From Sedimentibacter sp. MB31-C6 (lineage in GTDB: Bacteria > Bacillota > Clostridia > Tissierellales > Sedimentibacteraceae), in NCBI RefSeq assembly GCF_035934735.1, contig NZ_CP142396.1, positions 2,914,001-2,978,000 of the forward strand: 64,000 bases of DNA, read 5' to 3'. Position numbers and translations under genes: made by a program. The notes under the pieces were generated by a model. The model ran no database searches, had not been told where the DNA came from, and saw only the letters and a list, made by a program, of their open reading frames with translations. Numbering within the stretch: the stretch's first letter is position 1; the number at the start of each line of letters is the position of its first letter. This document shows, piece after piece, positions 56,201 to 62,439 of the stretch.

Positions 56201-56913
56201 CATTTGATGTAATAACTTTATTTCCTGAGCTAATAGATGTTTATACTAAAAACGGAATTATTGGCAGAGCAATTGATAATAATACATTTAATTTGAAATA
56301 TGTTAATCTCAGAGAATATTCTGAAGATAAGCATAAAAAAGTGGATGATTATCCATATGGTGGAGGTCCAGGTATGCTGTTAAAACCTGAACCTATGTTT
56401 AATGCTTTGAATGCTATAAAACGAGACAATTCATATATTATTTATTTATCACCAAAAGGCAATTTGTTTACACAAAAAAAGGCCAAGGAGCTTTCTGCTA
56501 AAGAACATATAATACTTATCGCTGGACATTATGAAGGCATAGATCAAAGAATCATAGACAAATATGTGGATGAAGAAATTTCTATGGGAGATTATGTGAT
56601 GACAAGTGGAGAACTTCCAGCTCTTATGATTATTGATGCAGTAGGTAGATTAATACCAGGTGTATTAGGATCTGATGAATCTTCAATAGAAGAATCTCAT
56701 AGCAATAATTTACTGGAATACCCACAATATACTAGGCCTGAAAGCTACAAAAATATAAAAGTTCCAGATATTCTATTGTCTGGTCATCATAAAAAAATTA
56801 AAGAGTGGCGTCGTTTTAAAGCAATTGAAGTTACCCTCGATAGACGTCCAGATTTAATAAAAGATGAAAAAATTATAGAAGAATACAACAAATTAAAAAA
56901 AATATACAAATAA
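56197..56913 (+). CDS. trmD: tRNA (guanine-37-N1)-methyltransferase TrmD
   Basis: A 238-residue SPOUT-class methyltransferase that makes m1G37 and prevents +1 frameshifting. It begins MTFDVITLFPELID. The knot and SAM-binding motifs are YPYGGGPGMLLKPEP, LIAGHYEGIDQRIIDKYVDEEISMGDYVMTSGELPAL, and the C-terminal LLSGHHKKIKEWRR. Translation is coupled to rimM through an ATGA overlap. Length is standard. Confidence 0.98.
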   Translation: MTFDVITLFPELIDVYTKNGIIGRAIDNNTFNLKYVNLREYSEDKHKKVDDYPYGGGPGMLLKPEPMFNALNAIKRDNSYIIYLSPKGNLFTQKKAKELSAKEHIILIAGHYEGIDQRIIDKYVDEEISMGDYVMTSGELPALMIIDAVGRLIPGVLGSDESSIEESHSNNLLEYPQYTRPESYKNIKVPDILLSGHHKKIKEWRRFKAIEVTLDRRPDLIKDEKIIEEYNKLKKIYK

Positions 56914-56916
56914 TTG

Positions 56917-57018
56917 TTGTAAGCATTATAACAATTATGCTATAATGCATTAGAGTATACGGCGGTCCTCTATACGTTAAAAAGTATTAAGAACGCTTAA
57001 GCGAAGGGAGGTATACAA
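56917..57018 (+). promoter_or_regulatory. rplS promoter and probable L19 leader
   Basis: TTGTAA (56917-56922), 18 bp, TGC-extended TATAAT (56941-56946). The following leader has inverted GTATA/TATAC arms around GGCGGTCCTC, then CGCTTAAGCG, then the RBS GGGAGG and a final GTATAC. Firmicute rplS genes often carry an autoregulatory L19 leader; this one resembles it in place and layout, but I have not matched it to a model. Confidence 0.55.
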
Positions 57019-57366
57019 ATGGATTTAATAAAATCAATTGAATTAGAACAAGTTAAAAGTGAAGTTACACCTTTTAATGTGGGAGATACAATTAAAGTAC
57101 ACGTTAGAATAAAAGAAGGTAACAGAGAAAGAGTTCAGGTATTCGAAGGTATTGTAATTAAAAAACAAGGCGGAAGTAACCGAGCAACTTTTACCGTAAG
57201 AAAACTTTCTTACGGAGTAGGTGTTGAAAGAACTTTCCCAATTCATTCTCCTAAAATTGAAAAAATCGAAGTAGTAAGAAAAGGTAAAGTAAGACGAGCT
57301 AGATTGTTCTATCTAAGAGAAAGAACTGGTAAAGCAGCTAAAGTTAAAGAATTAAGGAATTATTAA
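57019..57366 (+). CDS. rplS: 50S ribosomal protein L19
   Basis: A 115-residue ribosomal protein at the 30S-50S interface. Typical segments are [34 protein letters not shown] and [53 protein letters not shown]. The RBS is AGGGAGG. A strong terminator follows 3 bp after the stop. Confidence 0.98.
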
Positions 57367-57369
57367 TCA

Positions 57370-57395
57370 ATTGAGGGCATCTGCCCTCAATTTTT
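57370..57395 (+). terminator. Terminator of rplS
   Basis: ATTGAGGGCA (57370-57379) and TGCCCTCAAT (57382-57391) with a two-base loop, then T4. Confidence 0.92.
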
Positions 57396-57402
57396 GTATG
57401 AC

Positions 57403-57645
57403 CTAACCCCATTTTTTCGACCGTAGGGAGAAAAAAATGGTTGGTAGGTCAACCGCAACGAACTCCCAATTTATGCGACCGTAGGGAGCAAATAAATTGG
57501 TGAGTGAGACTGCGTATACACTAACCCCATTTTTTCGACCGTAGGGAGAAAAAAATGGTTGGTAGGTCAACCGCAACGAACTCCCAATTTATGCGACCGT
57601 AGGGAGCAAATAAATTGGTGAGTGAGACTGCGTATACACTAACCC
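57403..57645. repeat. 118-bp perfect tandem repeat of paired hairpins
   Basis: Two identical 118-bp copies (57403-57520 and 57521-57638) and the first 7 bp of a third. Each copy holds two hairpins, CCATTTTTT/AAAAAATGG and CCAATTTAT/ATAAATTGG, and each hairpin loop carries GACCGTAGGGAG, giving four occurrences (57419, 57477, 57537, 57595). A degraded CAGTAGAGAGCG follows at 57650. It is non-coding and more GC-rich than its flanks. It fills most of the 353 bp between rplS and rbgA. Confidence 0.92.
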
Positions 57646-57719
57646 AAACAGTAGAGAGCGAAAAACAGGGTAGAAGAAAAAAATTACAGGTAATTTAGCC
57701 GTAATAGAAAGAGGTATAT

Positions 57720-58562
57720 ATGAATATAAATTGGTATCCAGGACATATGAAAAAAACAAAGGAACTGCTTCATGAAAATCTTAAGTTAGTAAATATTGTA
57801 ATAGAAGTTATTGATGCAAGAATTCCCATAAGTAGTAAAAATCCGGATTTTGATATTCTTTTTAAAGATAAAAAGAGATTAATTGTATTAAATAAATATG
57901 ATTTAGCTGATCCAGTTGCAAATAAAAATTGGGAAGAATATTATAAAAGTAAGGGATGGACAGTAGTATTATATAATTCTACTAATAATAAAGAACTTAG
58001 AAAACTCGAAATGGCCATAGCAGAAGCATCTAGGGAAATAATTGAAAGGTATAAAAAAAGAGGATTATTAAACAAAACAATTAAAGCAATGATAGTAGGA
58101 ATTCCTAATGTAGGAAAATCAACTCTTATAAATTCTATTGCAAAAAAGAAAAGCGCCAAAACAGGAAACATGCCAGGTGTTACTAAAGGTAAGCAATGGA
58201 TACGACTATCTGGTAATATTGATTTATTAGATACTCCAGGTATACTTTGGCCAAAATTTGATAACGAAGAAAGTGCATTAAACCTTGCTTTTACTGGAGC
58301 AATTAAAGATGAAGTTTTAGTTTTAGAAGAAATAGGATTGAAATTTATAGAAAAAATGCAACACTTAGGTAAAGAAAAAGCGATTATTGAAAAATATGGT
58401 GTGGAAAACAATGACAAAGCTCTAAATATAATGGAAAATATTGCTTTGAAGCGAAACTTATTATATAATAAAACTGAAATTGATTATTTAAGAGTTAGCA
58501 GTTTAATTTTAAATGATTTTAGAAGTGGAAAGCTAGGTAAAATCACTTTAGAAAAATCTTAA
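57720..58562 (+). CDS. rbgA: Ribosome biogenesis GTPase RbgA (YlqF)
   Basis: A 280-residue circularly permuted GTPase needed for late 50S assembly. It starts MNINWYPGHMKKTKELLHENLKLVNIVIEVIDARIP. The permuted motif order is G4 (LNKYDLADP near residue 60), G1 (GIPNVGKSTLIN near 125) and G3 (LLDTPGILWPKF near 170). The C-terminal domain is helical. The RBS is GAGGT. It precedes rnhB by 98 bp, as in Bacillus. Confidence 0.96.
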   Translation: MNINWYPGHMKKTKELLHENLKLVNIVIEVIDARIPISSKNPDFDILFKDKKRLIVLNKYDLADPVANKNWEEYYKSKGWTVVLYNSTNNKELRKLEMAIAEASREIIERYKKRGLLNKTIKAMIVGIPNVGKSTLINSIAKKKSAKTGNMPGVTKGKQWIRLSGNIDLLDTPGILWPKFDNEESALNLAFTGAIKDEVLVLEEIGLKFIEKMQHLGKEKAIIEKYGVENNDKALNIMENIALKRNLLYNKTEIDYLRVSSLILNDFRSGKLGKITLEKS

Positions 58563-59564: not shown

Positions 59565-60290
59565 TTGTGTGATTATAAAATCGTAGTATGTGATGATGAA
59601 GAATTATGTCGAAGCGAATTAAAATTGCTGCTTGAGGAATATGAAGTAGATAATAACATAAACTTTGAAGTTGATTTTTATGAAAATGGCACAGAGCTAC
59701 TTAAGAAAAAAGTAAAGAATTATAATATATTTTTATTAGATATAGAAATGGAAGATATTAATGGAATTGAAATTGCAAAGCAAATAATAAAGGAATACCC
59801 TGATGCAATAATTATGTTTATCACAGGGTACGATAGTTATATTGATAATGCTTTTGATTTAAAAGTTATGAGATATTTAAATAAACCTGTAGATAAAAAA
59901 AGACTATATAGAGCATTAGATATAGCGATTTCCGATATAAATAGACAAAAACAATATGTTAATGTTCGTGATTATAGGGGAGAACATTGTAAAATTAAAA
60001 TTAATGATATTATAAGAATTTATATTGAAGGTAGAAAAGTTGCTTTAGAAGCATCTAAAGAAATATATGAAACAAATAAAACTTTTTCTGAATTCGAGAA
60101 ATTAGTTGAAAATTTCGATTTTGTTCATACATATAAAAAACGTCTGGTAAATCTTATGTATGTTTCTGGTTTTGAAGATGATAAATTATTGCTTATTAAA
60201 GGTAAAAATGAAATACAAGAATATATTAATCCTAGACTTATGAGCCATGTAAGAACAGAATGGCTTTTATATGGGAGGCGCTTCAGATGA
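59565..60290 (+). CDS. LytTR response regulator, AgrA-like
   Basis: A 241-residue two-component response regulator. The receiver domain (1-120) has the acidic pair CDDEE near residue 9, the phospho-acceptor Asp in IFLLDIEMEDINGIEIA near 57 and the Lys in YLNKPVDKKRLY near 103. A C-terminal LytTR DNA-binding domain (about 135-235) includes INDIIRIYIEGRKVALEA and FVHTYKKRLVNLMYV. It is expected to switch on the agr operon and target genes after phosphorylation by the next gene product. The start is TTG 59565, seven bases after CGGAGGT. Its stop overlaps the kinase start (ATGA). Confidence 0.9.
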   Translation: MCDYKIVVCDDEELCRSELKLLLEEYEVDNNINFEVDFYENGTELLKKKVKNYNIFLLDIEMEDINGIEIAKQIIKEYPDAIIMFITGYDSYIDNAFDLKVMRYLNKPVDKKRLYRALDIAISDINRQKQYVNVRDYRGEHCKIKINDIIRIYIEGRKVALEASKEIYETNKTFSEFEKLVENFDFVHTYKKRLVNLMYVSGFEDDKLLLIKGKNEIQEYINPRLMSHVRTEWLLYGRRFR

Positions 60291-61588
60291 TCGAATATAT
60301 ATATAACATTACTGTGTTAAGCACATATATATTTGAAGCATTAGTTGCACATATTTTATATTCATCAGCATTTAAACAAAACATAAATAACTATAAATAT
60401 TATACTTTGTTATTTGGAAGCTATTTTGTATTATCTATAATTCATTCTTTTAACAATACACTACTTAATTTAAGCTTGTTTGTTGTTATAAATATAATTC
60501 TCGCTTTAATTCTTTATGACGGGAAATTTAACACAAAAATTTATTATACTATCTTTTTTACTGTTGTTATGTTGGTAACTGAAGTGATATCTTTGTTTGT
60601 TTTGAAAATATACTTTAAAAATGATTTAATACTTTCTATGGCATCAAAAATTATTTTAGCTGTAATATCAAAGACTTTGTTATTTATTTTAATTAAAACC
60701 TTTTGCAATACTTTAAATAACAACTCTAACAAAATACCTACAAATAAATTTTTAGCTTTAATTCTAATTTCAGCAACTTTAGTTATGGTATTGTATGTTT
60801 TAATTGCTATTACTATTAACATCAAGATAAAAACAACAGAATTAATCACTGCTTTAATATGTGCAATAGGTCTTATGTTCTCAAGTATGATTATATTTTT
60901 TTTGTTTGAAGAAAGTATAAGAGAACAGACCGATTTAAAGGAATTCGCATTACTAAAGCAAAAATCTGAACTAGAACATAAACATTACAATATATTAAAA
61001 GAGAACTATGATAATATTAAAATAATAGAGCATGACATGAAAAAGCATTTATTGTTATTAAATGAGTATGCAAAACATGGAAGAAATAAAGAAATAATTA
61101 ATTATACGAGCAGTATTATTGATGATATTAAATATTCTACTTTTAAGCAAATTAGTTATAATAAAGCATTAGATGTAATACTTTATGAAAAAATTCAATC
61201 CGCTAAAAATAATAAAATAGCAATTTCAATTAATTCACAGAATGTTAAATTTGACTTTATTGAAGATATTGATATATGTATAATATTTTCTAATATACTA
61301 GATAATGCTATAGAAAGCTGTGAAAAAAGCTTAAATAAAGAAATACAACTAAACATTTTTATGGTAAATAACAAAATTATTACAATTGAAATGGAAAATA
61401 GCTGTGATGTAAAGCCAATTATTATAAACGAAGAACTAGTTACAAATAAATCTAATAAAGAAAATCATGGATTTGGAATGAAAAGTGTTAAAAAAACAAT
61501 AAAAAAATATAATGGACAAGTTATTTATTTATATAATGATTTAGAAAAAAAATTCATAACGAATATATCAATCTCTAATAATATATGA
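60287..61588 (+). CDS. Histidine kinase, AgrC-like peptide receptor
   Basis: A 433-residue membrane sensor kinase. About six N-terminal helices (1-205) form the peptide-sensing domain. A dimerisation helix follows with the phospho-acceptor His in IIEHDMKKHLLLLNEY near residue 250. The GHKL ATPase domain has the N box NILDNAIESCEKS near 335 and the G box HGFGMKSVKKTIKKYNG near 400. The HDxKKH motif places it in the AgrC/HPK10 group that detects cyclic peptides. The start is the ATG after GGGAGG; upstream codons lie within the regulator gene. The peptide gene follows in a separate transcription unit. Confidence 0.9.
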   Translation: MIEYIYNITVLSTYIFEALVAHILYSSAFKQNINNYKYYTLLFGSYFVLSIIHSFNNTLLNLSLFVVINIILALILYDGKFNTKIYYTIFFTVVMLVTEVISLFVLKIYFKNDLILSMASKIILAVISKTLLFILIKTFCNTLNNNSNKIPTNKFLALILISATLVMVLYVLIAITINIKIKTTELITALICAIGLMFSSMIIFFLFEESIREQTDLKEFALLKQKSELEHKHYNILKENYDNIKIIEHDMKKHLLLLNEYAKHGRNKEIINYTSSIIDDIKYSTFKQISYNKALDVILYEKIQSAKNNKIAISINSQNVKFDFIEDIDICIIFSNILDNAIESCEKSLNKEIQLNIFMVNNKIITIEMENSCDVKPIIINEELVTNKSNKENHGFGMKSVKKTIKKYNGQVIYLYNDLEKKFITNISISNNI

Positions 61589-61614
61589 AAAATTTTCCAA
61601 TTTATATTATTTTT

Positions 61615-61633
61615 ACATTAACAGAAGTAATGT
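61615..61633. promoter_or_regulatory. Inverted repeat upstream of agrD promoter
   Basis: ACATTA (61615-61620) and TAATGT (61628-61633) lie 12 bp before the -35 box. ATTAACA within it recurs inverted upstream of the agrA promoter (59464-59470). A candidate LytTR-regulator site; the consensus was not verified. Confidence 0.4.
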
Positions 61634-61645
61634 TTTCAAATTTTA

Positions 61646-61673
61646 TTGACAATTTACTACAAGATACTATAAT
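61646..61673 (+). promoter_or_regulatory. Promoter of agrD-agrB
   Basis: TTGACA (61646-61651), 16 bp, TATAAT (61668-61673). Confidence 0.82.
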
Positions 61674-61711
61674 TATACAACAAATGAAATTAATGTGAAA
61701 GGAGGTCTATT

Positions 61712-61858
61712 ATGAAAAATATAAAAACTATAATAGGGAAAACATTAACTAATGTTATGTTAAAAACAGCAGTAAATAATGCTAATACTACTTCTTGTTG
61801 CATTATGCATCAACCAAAAGTACCAACTGAATTGAAGAATCTTAGGAGAAATAAATGA
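61712..61858 (+). CDS. agrD: Cyclic (thio)lactone autoinducer peptide AgrD
   Basis: A 48-residue precursor with three parts. Residues 1-25 are an amphipathic leader (MKNIKTIIGKTLTNVMLKTA and on). The core is TTSCCIMH (26-33). The C-terminal recognition tail begins QPKVPTELKNL. The tail matches the (E/Q)PKxPxEL pattern of AgrD peptides. Processing by AgrB would give a small ring peptide: CCIMH as a five-residue thiolactone, or a ring closed by Ser28 if counted from the conserved HQP motif. The RBS is AAAGGAGGT. It overlaps agrB by 4 bp, so the two are translationally coupled. The mature form cannot be fixed from sequence. Confidence 0.9.
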   Translation: MKNIKTIIGKTLTNVMLKTAVNNANTTSCCIMHQPKVPTELKNLRRNK

Positions 61859-62439
61859 TTAAGTTTTTAAGTCAAAACTTAATGAATTGTGTTTTAAAAC
61901 TTAATTTAATTGAAAAGGAAGATGAAAATTTATATGCATATGGAGCAGAACTGGCTATATCTTATATATTGAATTTAATAGCTATTATTATAATAGGCGC
62001 TGTTATGGATATGATGTTTTATACAATTGCTTTTTTAATAATATTCATTCCATTGAAAAGCTATAGTGGAGGATATCATGCACCAAACTATTTAATATGT
62101 TTTATAATGTCTTGTATTACTGTTGCAGCAGTATTGTATATTACTAAATATGGTTATGAATATGTACCAAATAATATACTAATTTTAGTAATGGCCTTTA
62201 TGGGAATGATGATTTACATATTAGGACCGATTGAAGATAAAAATAAACCATTAACCGAAAGTGAATATACTCATTTTAAATATAAGATAAAGATTATATT
62301 AGTAGCTGAGTTTATTATAGCATTTGCTTCAAGTATTATTGGATTTGATAAAATGGTGTTCATCTTTTTCTGTAATTTCATTGTCACTCTAGGAGTGAGT
62401 AGTGCGGGTTTATTAAAAAATACTTTTGCTAACGTATAA
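61855..62439 (+). CDS. agrB: Accessory gene regulator protein B (AgrB)
   Basis: A 194-residue membrane cysteine endopeptidase that cleaves AgrD and forms the ring thioester or ester. The catalytic pair is His75 and Cys82 in SYSGGYHAPNYLICFIMSC, matching H77 and C84 of Staphylococcus aureus AgrB. About four to five hydrophobic helices surround it, and a charged loop (GPIEDKNKPLTESEYTHFKYK) matches the family. It is coupled to agrD through an ATGA overlap and followed by a terminator. Confidence 0.93.
   Translation: MIKFLSQNLMNCVLKLNLIEKEDENLYAYGAELAISYILNLIAIIIIGAVMDMMFYTIAFLIIFIPLKSYSGGYHAPNYLICFIMSCITVAAVLYITKYGYEYVPNNILILVMAFMGMMIYILGPIEDKNKPLTESEYTHFKYKIKIILVAEFIIAFASSIIGFDKMVFIFFCNFIVTLGVSSAGLLKNTFANV

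Follow-up and report, generated by a model that had tools for sequence, protein, structure and literature searches.

A dispersed ~117-nt two-hairpin element of Sedimentibacter and its relatives, probably mobile, with an internal dinucleotide complementary to its left flank

The ~117-nt unit repeated in tandem between rplS and rbgA of Sedimentibacter sp. MB31-C6 belongs to a dispersed family that has a conserved, covarying structure, carries two internal bases complementary to the two bases on its left, and is present or absent at the same sites in different sequences. Two bases within the element appear to determine where it inserts, by pairing with the dinucleotide next to the site. We consider it probable that the family is a non-autonomous mobile element and that its copies travel as one folded DNA strand to sites selected by this guide.

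The repeat between rplS and rbgA and its family

The window is a 64,000-nt stretch of contig NZ_CP142396.1 (positions 2,914,001 to 2,978,000). Within it, Tandem Repeats Finder called a repeat at 57403-57645 with a period of 118, 2.1 copies, and 100% matches, bearing out the first-pass annotation, which had described a 118-bp tandem repeat with two perfect copies; a second repeat search gave 97% matches and a start 7 bases earlier. The location given there, after the rplS terminator and ahead of rbgA, also stands: the upstream gene is rplS (Ribosomal_L19 match), and the downstream frame matches MMR_HSR1 and is named rbgA from its position and resemblance. Positions 57398-57632 hold two tandem copies of the ~117-nt element, followed by a decayed third (Table 1), and the tandem pair probably arose when a single unit beside a decayed second one was duplicated locally. 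Each unit runs ATGMCCTAACCC, hairpin 1, GGTAGGTCA, a 2-nt guide, hairpin 2, and CTGCG; its left end can also be written ATGACCTAACCC. The fold of the repeat is better than those of 200 shuffles (z of −6.8), and a single unit folded as single-stranded DNA gave a z of −6.5.

Table 1. Features of the repeat region, in window coordinates.
Feature	Position	Strand	Basis
Intrinsic terminator of rplS, landing site	57369..57396	+	Stem-loop 57369-57392 and T-run; terminator-like, 10 pairs
GT, target dinucleotide left of first unit, context TTTTTGT	57396..57397	+	Pairs with guide AC at 57452-57453
First unit, ATGACCTAACC...CTGCG	57398..57514	+	R1 covariance model match 57395-57515, 137.9 bits
Hairpin 1, TGACCTA-a-CC ... 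GG-TAGGTCA, tip GACCGTAGGGAG at 57419-57430	57399..57451	+	Alignment A1, pair counts, fold
Guide dinucleotide AC, directly 5′ of hairpin 2 foot	57452..57453	+	A1 columns 60-61 covary with columns 3 and 2
Hairpin 2, foot CGCA/TGCG, tip GACCGTAGGGAG at 57477-57488	57454..57514	+	Alignment, pair counts, fold
Second unit, left end changed to ATACAC	57516..57632	+	R1 match 57516-57633, 113.8 bits
Tips of second unit; guide AC of second unit	57537-57548 and 57595-57606; 57570-57571	+	
Decayed start of third unit, ATACACTAACCC...CAGTAGAGAGCG...GGGTAG	57634..57673	+	Read from sequence; without model match

The 12-base sequence GACCGTAGGGAG had been annotated as a loop occurring four times, with a decayed fifth. 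The count is right: it is found exactly four times in the window, and still four times when up to two mismatches are allowed, against a chance expectation of 0.38 and a maximum of 2 in 100 shuffles. It is not a plain loop, however, but a hairpin tip that is a short stem itself, with tandem G·A mismatches, 1 to 2 pairs, and a loop of 3 to 4 bases. The supposed fifth loop is the start of the third unit, which is too decayed for the covariance model. On the minus strand, an arm of hairpin 1 makes a terminator-like stem with a T-run (GGTTGACCTACCAACC ATTTTTTTCT) at 57454-57439 and 57572-57557.

Further copies had been proposed to be sought in this genome and its relatives. An exact 13-mer search of the own genome met only the window (CGACCGTAGGGAG has four exact copies, all inside the repeat), and a search with mismatches remained at chance level (408 matches versus 688 for the reversed control). 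The resulting view that there were no other copies was overturned by the covariance model R1, which has 31 matches in the own genome. Copies were found by the model in 23 of 25 genomes of the genus (none in G002 and G015) and, with E-values that are rough, in 127 of 249 genomes and 42 of 92 genera of the order. An exact pattern scan of named genomes (CCTAACCC-N18..46-GGTAGGTCA-NN-CGCA) matched at least 120 stretches; the taxa among the matches listed were Sedimentibacter, Tissierella, metagenome-assembled genomes titled Tissierellia, Clostridiales, Firmicutes, and Bacillota, and one Eubacterium. A longer, autonomous version was sought at 100 of 120 named loci, where the longest model matches were ~166 to 276 nt, into which a transposase would not fit; a composite in G025 that had been taken for such a version was rejected as the region around 5S rRNA. 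In the portions of the literature available to us, no description of the element was found, and the 12-mer was met only in work on a Leuconostoc bacteriocin.

Structure and guide-flank complementarity

For the alignment A1, 88 units were aligned with MAFFT (3 of 91 reference units were left out). As many as 95.6% of structure cells (88 sequences, 39 pairs) form standard pairs in this alignment, which was not fitted to the structure, the structure itself coming partly from RNAalifold on the same alignment. Two-sided changes are seen in 25 of the 39 pairs (448 cells). None of 500 shuffles gave counts of such changes as high, and every slid control was far lower. The tandem G·A mismatches are retained in 87 and 85 of the 88 rows, and the pairs on either side of them covary. 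Tip loops begin with G in 59 units and with A in 23, both classes ending in A; the other 6 differ. The earlier suggestion of a recognition role for the shared tip is consistent with the tandem G·A kept amid covarying pairs, but the 12-mer as such is not invariant: it is replaced by other tips such as GACGNAAGGA and GAGCGNNAGCGA and is often absent from hairpin 1.

Folded as DNA, the given strand reaches −27.0 kcal/mol versus −24.0 kcal/mol for the opposite strand, and both fold well; folded as RNA, the two are about equal (−45.0 versus −44.9 kcal/mol). Neither an active strand nor RNA over DNA is singled out by the ratio of G·T to A·C pairs (43:30, p of 0.16).

Where the two bases immediately 5′ to the CGCA foot of hairpin 2 differ between units, the two bases to the left of the unit change with them; the first tabulation of left flank and guide gave TT/AA, AG/TT, and GT/AC. 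When antiparallel pairing was scored with G·T allowed, the guide paired with the left dinucleotide at 150 of 158 distinct sites and failed at 8. Sites were counted as distinct 16-base left flanks, units that follow another unit being left out. Shuffled guides paired at 50.0 of 158 sites (sd of 5.6, maximum of 69 in 3000 shuffles), a comparison that is not a strict probability, since the flanks share descent. With Watson-Crick pairs only, 101 of 158 sites paired, versus 33.4 (sd of 4.2) for shuffled guides; 49 of the 150 pairings thus need G·T. The dinucleotide one base further left paired at 102 sites and that three bases further left at 55. Parallel pairing, scored as a control, was found at 107 sites versus 41.6 when shuffled, a high value because TT/AA is the same in either direction. 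Rarer combinations also fit, among them GC/GC (four flanks) and TG/CA (one flank); a unit in a 16S-23S spacer of the own genome has ...TTGC on its left and the guide GC. Among later units of arrays, the guide pairs in only 12 of 22, and the linkers after guide-AA units end in the pairing dinucleotide in 2 of 32 cases.

Landing sites and alternative readings

Left trinucleotides follow the guide: TTT for AA (24 of 25), TGT for AC (19 of 19), and mostly AAG for TT (30, 33, and 34 of 35 by position). Guide-AA units lie in T-runs, mostly those of terminators, and guide-AC units lie after TGT, likewise mostly in terminator T-runs. Guide-TT units follow AAG, and 17 of 37 are at most 3 bases from a called stop codon or supply a TAA stop themselves. 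One rRNA region of the own genome has units before 16S, two in the 16S-23S spacer, one site between 23S and 5S, and three tandem units between tRNAs. At the element’s own landing place in the window, the rplS-rbgA gap, an unrelated repeat with GGGGACATTCC...GTGTCCC hairpins occupies the gap in other Sedimentibacter (L207, L211, L215, L219, L220, and L227); the gap therefore receives several repeat types. IS200-type copies of ~740 bp also stand directly in T-runs after stem-loops (L431, L443, and L450 in G196; L433 in G238), and the ends of the G196 copies have no visible motif in common with the element.

Differences in occupancy were read at several sites. At one point of the 16S-23S spacers, two of five are filled and three empty in the own genome, and in two spacers a unit accompanies a variant of the spacer that bears a tRNA. 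G021 has a unit at one point in two of its five spacers and in one of four 16S leaders. The cleanest junction is in a G021 spacer, where GAGAAG/ACATT becomes GAGAAG-ATGCC...CTGCGAG-ACATT. Behind the FMN-riboswitch terminator of a ribU-like gene, there is one unit in G021, two in G014, and one in G011, with traces in G004 and G009 and no unit in the other 17 of 22 regions read; in G007, the closest relative with an empty site, the sequence there is TTTTTGT. Of 19 regions read with sequence upstream of an activase-like gene, that of G020 alone is filled, and G008 has a degenerate copy. Among 21 rplS-rbgA gaps read, G004 has a unit, G013 a remnant, and G005 a possible one, and the gap of G009 has TTTTTTGT and then other sequence. 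Some empty sites are inexact: a spacer of the own genome reads GAGAA/CGACATT without the G, and the G021 16S leader lacks a T. Units nested in another repeat provide more empty sites, with one extra A gained. Target duplication is absent from the junctions read, and several empty sites differ by 1 to 6 nt. In every main class, therefore, the cleanest case shows native left bases, but three other cases do not show this exactly.

The nest repeat, TGTCATTCTGAG...CGAAGAATCTC, is itself dispersed and hosts several units (L092, L193, L135, L156, L190, L196, L159, and L202); its GAGCGNAGCGA-like tip also has GA..GNA..GA. In L176 and L184, flanks that are 99% and 95% alike enclose units only 77% alike, which suggests that one unit replaced another while the site stayed as it was. 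The guess that the element is small and mobile is supported by the dispersed family and by the differences in occupancy at the same sites. The phage link proposed alongside it fared poorly: no blastn match was found in phages or plasmids, and the viral collection gave a single match on a contig of 57 kb (L205, viral_contigs), where the unit is shortened and measures 79 nt in the pattern used.

A structured RNA element, such as a processing or stability signal at 3′ ends or in rRNA/tRNA spacers, with the left dinucleotide as an outer pair of hairpin 1, would account for the strong covariation and for units in transcribed spacers (before 16S, 16S-23S, 23S-5S, and between tRNAs), and the upstream ORF is co-oriented for 65 of the 81 units that have a called one. 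Yet the paired dinucleotide lies outside the unit wherever an empty site is readable (T-runs and GAGAAG/ACATT) and is often unpaired in later array units, three of the four units of L301 face neither flanking gene, and a search of Rfam with window positions 56900-57800 gave no match up to an E-value of 5. G·U pairs make up only 1.2% of cells, and tRNAs from these contigs have 5%; the argument is weak, and its controls are small. We regard this explanation as unlikely.

Group IIC-like introns land at terminators and pair with their flanks through IBS-EBS contacts. Landing right behind terminator T-runs and pairing between flank and interior would suit an RNA-level mover, a relic of such an intron or of another retroelement, in which the left-flank pairing is a contact of the IBS-EBS type; but 117 nt is below the size of a ribozyme core, and terminator-free targets (AAG, rRNA spacers) are common, which makes this origin very improbable. 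Still less credit is due to an attC-like integron recombination site: CCTAAC...GGTAGG resembles inverted attC core boxes, but the fully read clusters proved to be rRNA/tRNA operons and ordinary genes, with no cassette arrays in L300 and L301. Simple slippage or an assembly artefact is refuted for the unit: the local duplication, perfect over 118 bp, could be slippage, but the element recurs at many sites in many genomes, tandem units are common across the family, and the lack of other genomic copies that the first-pass annotation had linked to this reading does not hold.

Proposed movement and relation to known systems

In orientation, 92 of 108 sites in six genomes, among the 150 of 230 matches listed, are co-directional with the replication fork (G000, 11 of 12; G021, 13 of 13; G196, 29 of 31; G240, 16 of 22; G247, 14 of 16; G025, 9 of 14). 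This agrees with lagging-strand targeting, yet orientation also tracks gene direction: flanking genes mostly share the fork direction, and the strand bias is inseparable from gene orientation. Around the 5S rRNA of G025 (L462, L463, L464, and L467), a single unit stands after 23S, and beyond 5S there are as many as five in tandem that point the other way; fork orientation is therefore not strict.

In systems of REP sequences and IS200/IS605, the cleavage site is the one complementary to a guide just 5′ of the hairpin foot, and when GTAG was altered to GTAC in one REP system, cleavage shifted to GA and GT sites (PMC8266576, PMC6006769). Guide-directed target choice in IS200/IS605 and REP was demonstrated by laboratory changes of the guide (PMC8266576). 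The guide of hairpin 2 shares this geometry, and we therefore read the family as a non-autonomous element of single-stranded DNA. Its active form would be single-stranded DNA, acted on in trans by an HUH-type enzyme that may recognize the two hairpins through their tandem G·A tips. Beside the foot of hairpin 2, the guide dinucleotide would pair with two bases of the target strand and so direct insertion, with the element placed just 3′ of the paired dinucleotide. A change of guide would then change the target: AA would select TT (terminator T-runs), AC would select GT, TT would select AG (with one G·T pair), and GC would select GC.

The likeness to IS200/IS605 and PATE lies in subterminal hairpins, a mobile unit that needs no gene of its own, a guide that adjoins a hairpin foot on its 5′ side and is complementary to the left site, and insertion 3′ of that site. 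In contrast to IS200/IS605, the guide lies between the two hairpins, 54 nt inside the element, and has 2 nt rather than the tetranucleotide described in the papers; its two bases change together with the target inside a single family; and copies have no linked Y1 gene. With REP and TnpA-REP (RAYT), the element shares dispersed intergenic hairpins, stem mismatches, and the complementarity of the last two guide bases to the cleavage dinucleotide (PMC8266576). It differs from REP in its foot tetranucleotide, CANN (CAAA, CAAC, CATT, or CAGC before CGCA) instead of GTAG/GTRG, in an invariant GGTAG inside hairpin 1, and in having ~117 nt with two hairpins of the same orientation versus 20 to 65 nt.

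MITE-like bacterial repeats (BOX, RUP, and ERIC) are short, gene-free, dispersed, intergenic, and modular, and the element resembles them in all of this; unlike them, it has no evident terminal inverted repeats or target duplication, and its site choice is tied to an internal guide.

Y1 transposase loci (PF01797) were scanned with R1 in 30 of 41 genus matches and 30 of 31 matches in 16 other genomes. By motifs and model, linkage was seen at only 1 of the 60 loci, with a copy within 1.5 kb, beside a degenerate Y1 frame. No Y1 match was found in 7 of the 25 genus genomes, which have copies (G001, G004, G006, G007, G016, G017, and G022, several of them incomplete). Its apparent working places the element beside IS200/IS605 and REP but not among their members, because the search for a linked enzyme was negative and the element lacks the GTAG foot. 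More tentatively, and with the balance somewhat against it, the family might form a separate class of single-stranded DNA mobile elements, with two hairpins, a recognition tip of its own, a two-base guide naturally re-set at least four times (TT, GT, AG, and GC targets side by side in related genomes), and a mover other than a linked Y1 transposase.

The same kind of guide code has seemingly been rewritten in nature within one family, whose many natural guide-target pairs offer a ready test set for how guide-directed elements pick sites. The element accounts for repeat clutter in rRNA spacers and after terminators in much of an order, and it points to the existence of a mobilizing enzyme. Elsewhere in the window, at 59565-62439, ORFs resemble by eye a LytTR-type response regulator, a sensor kinase, and an AgrB-like protein.
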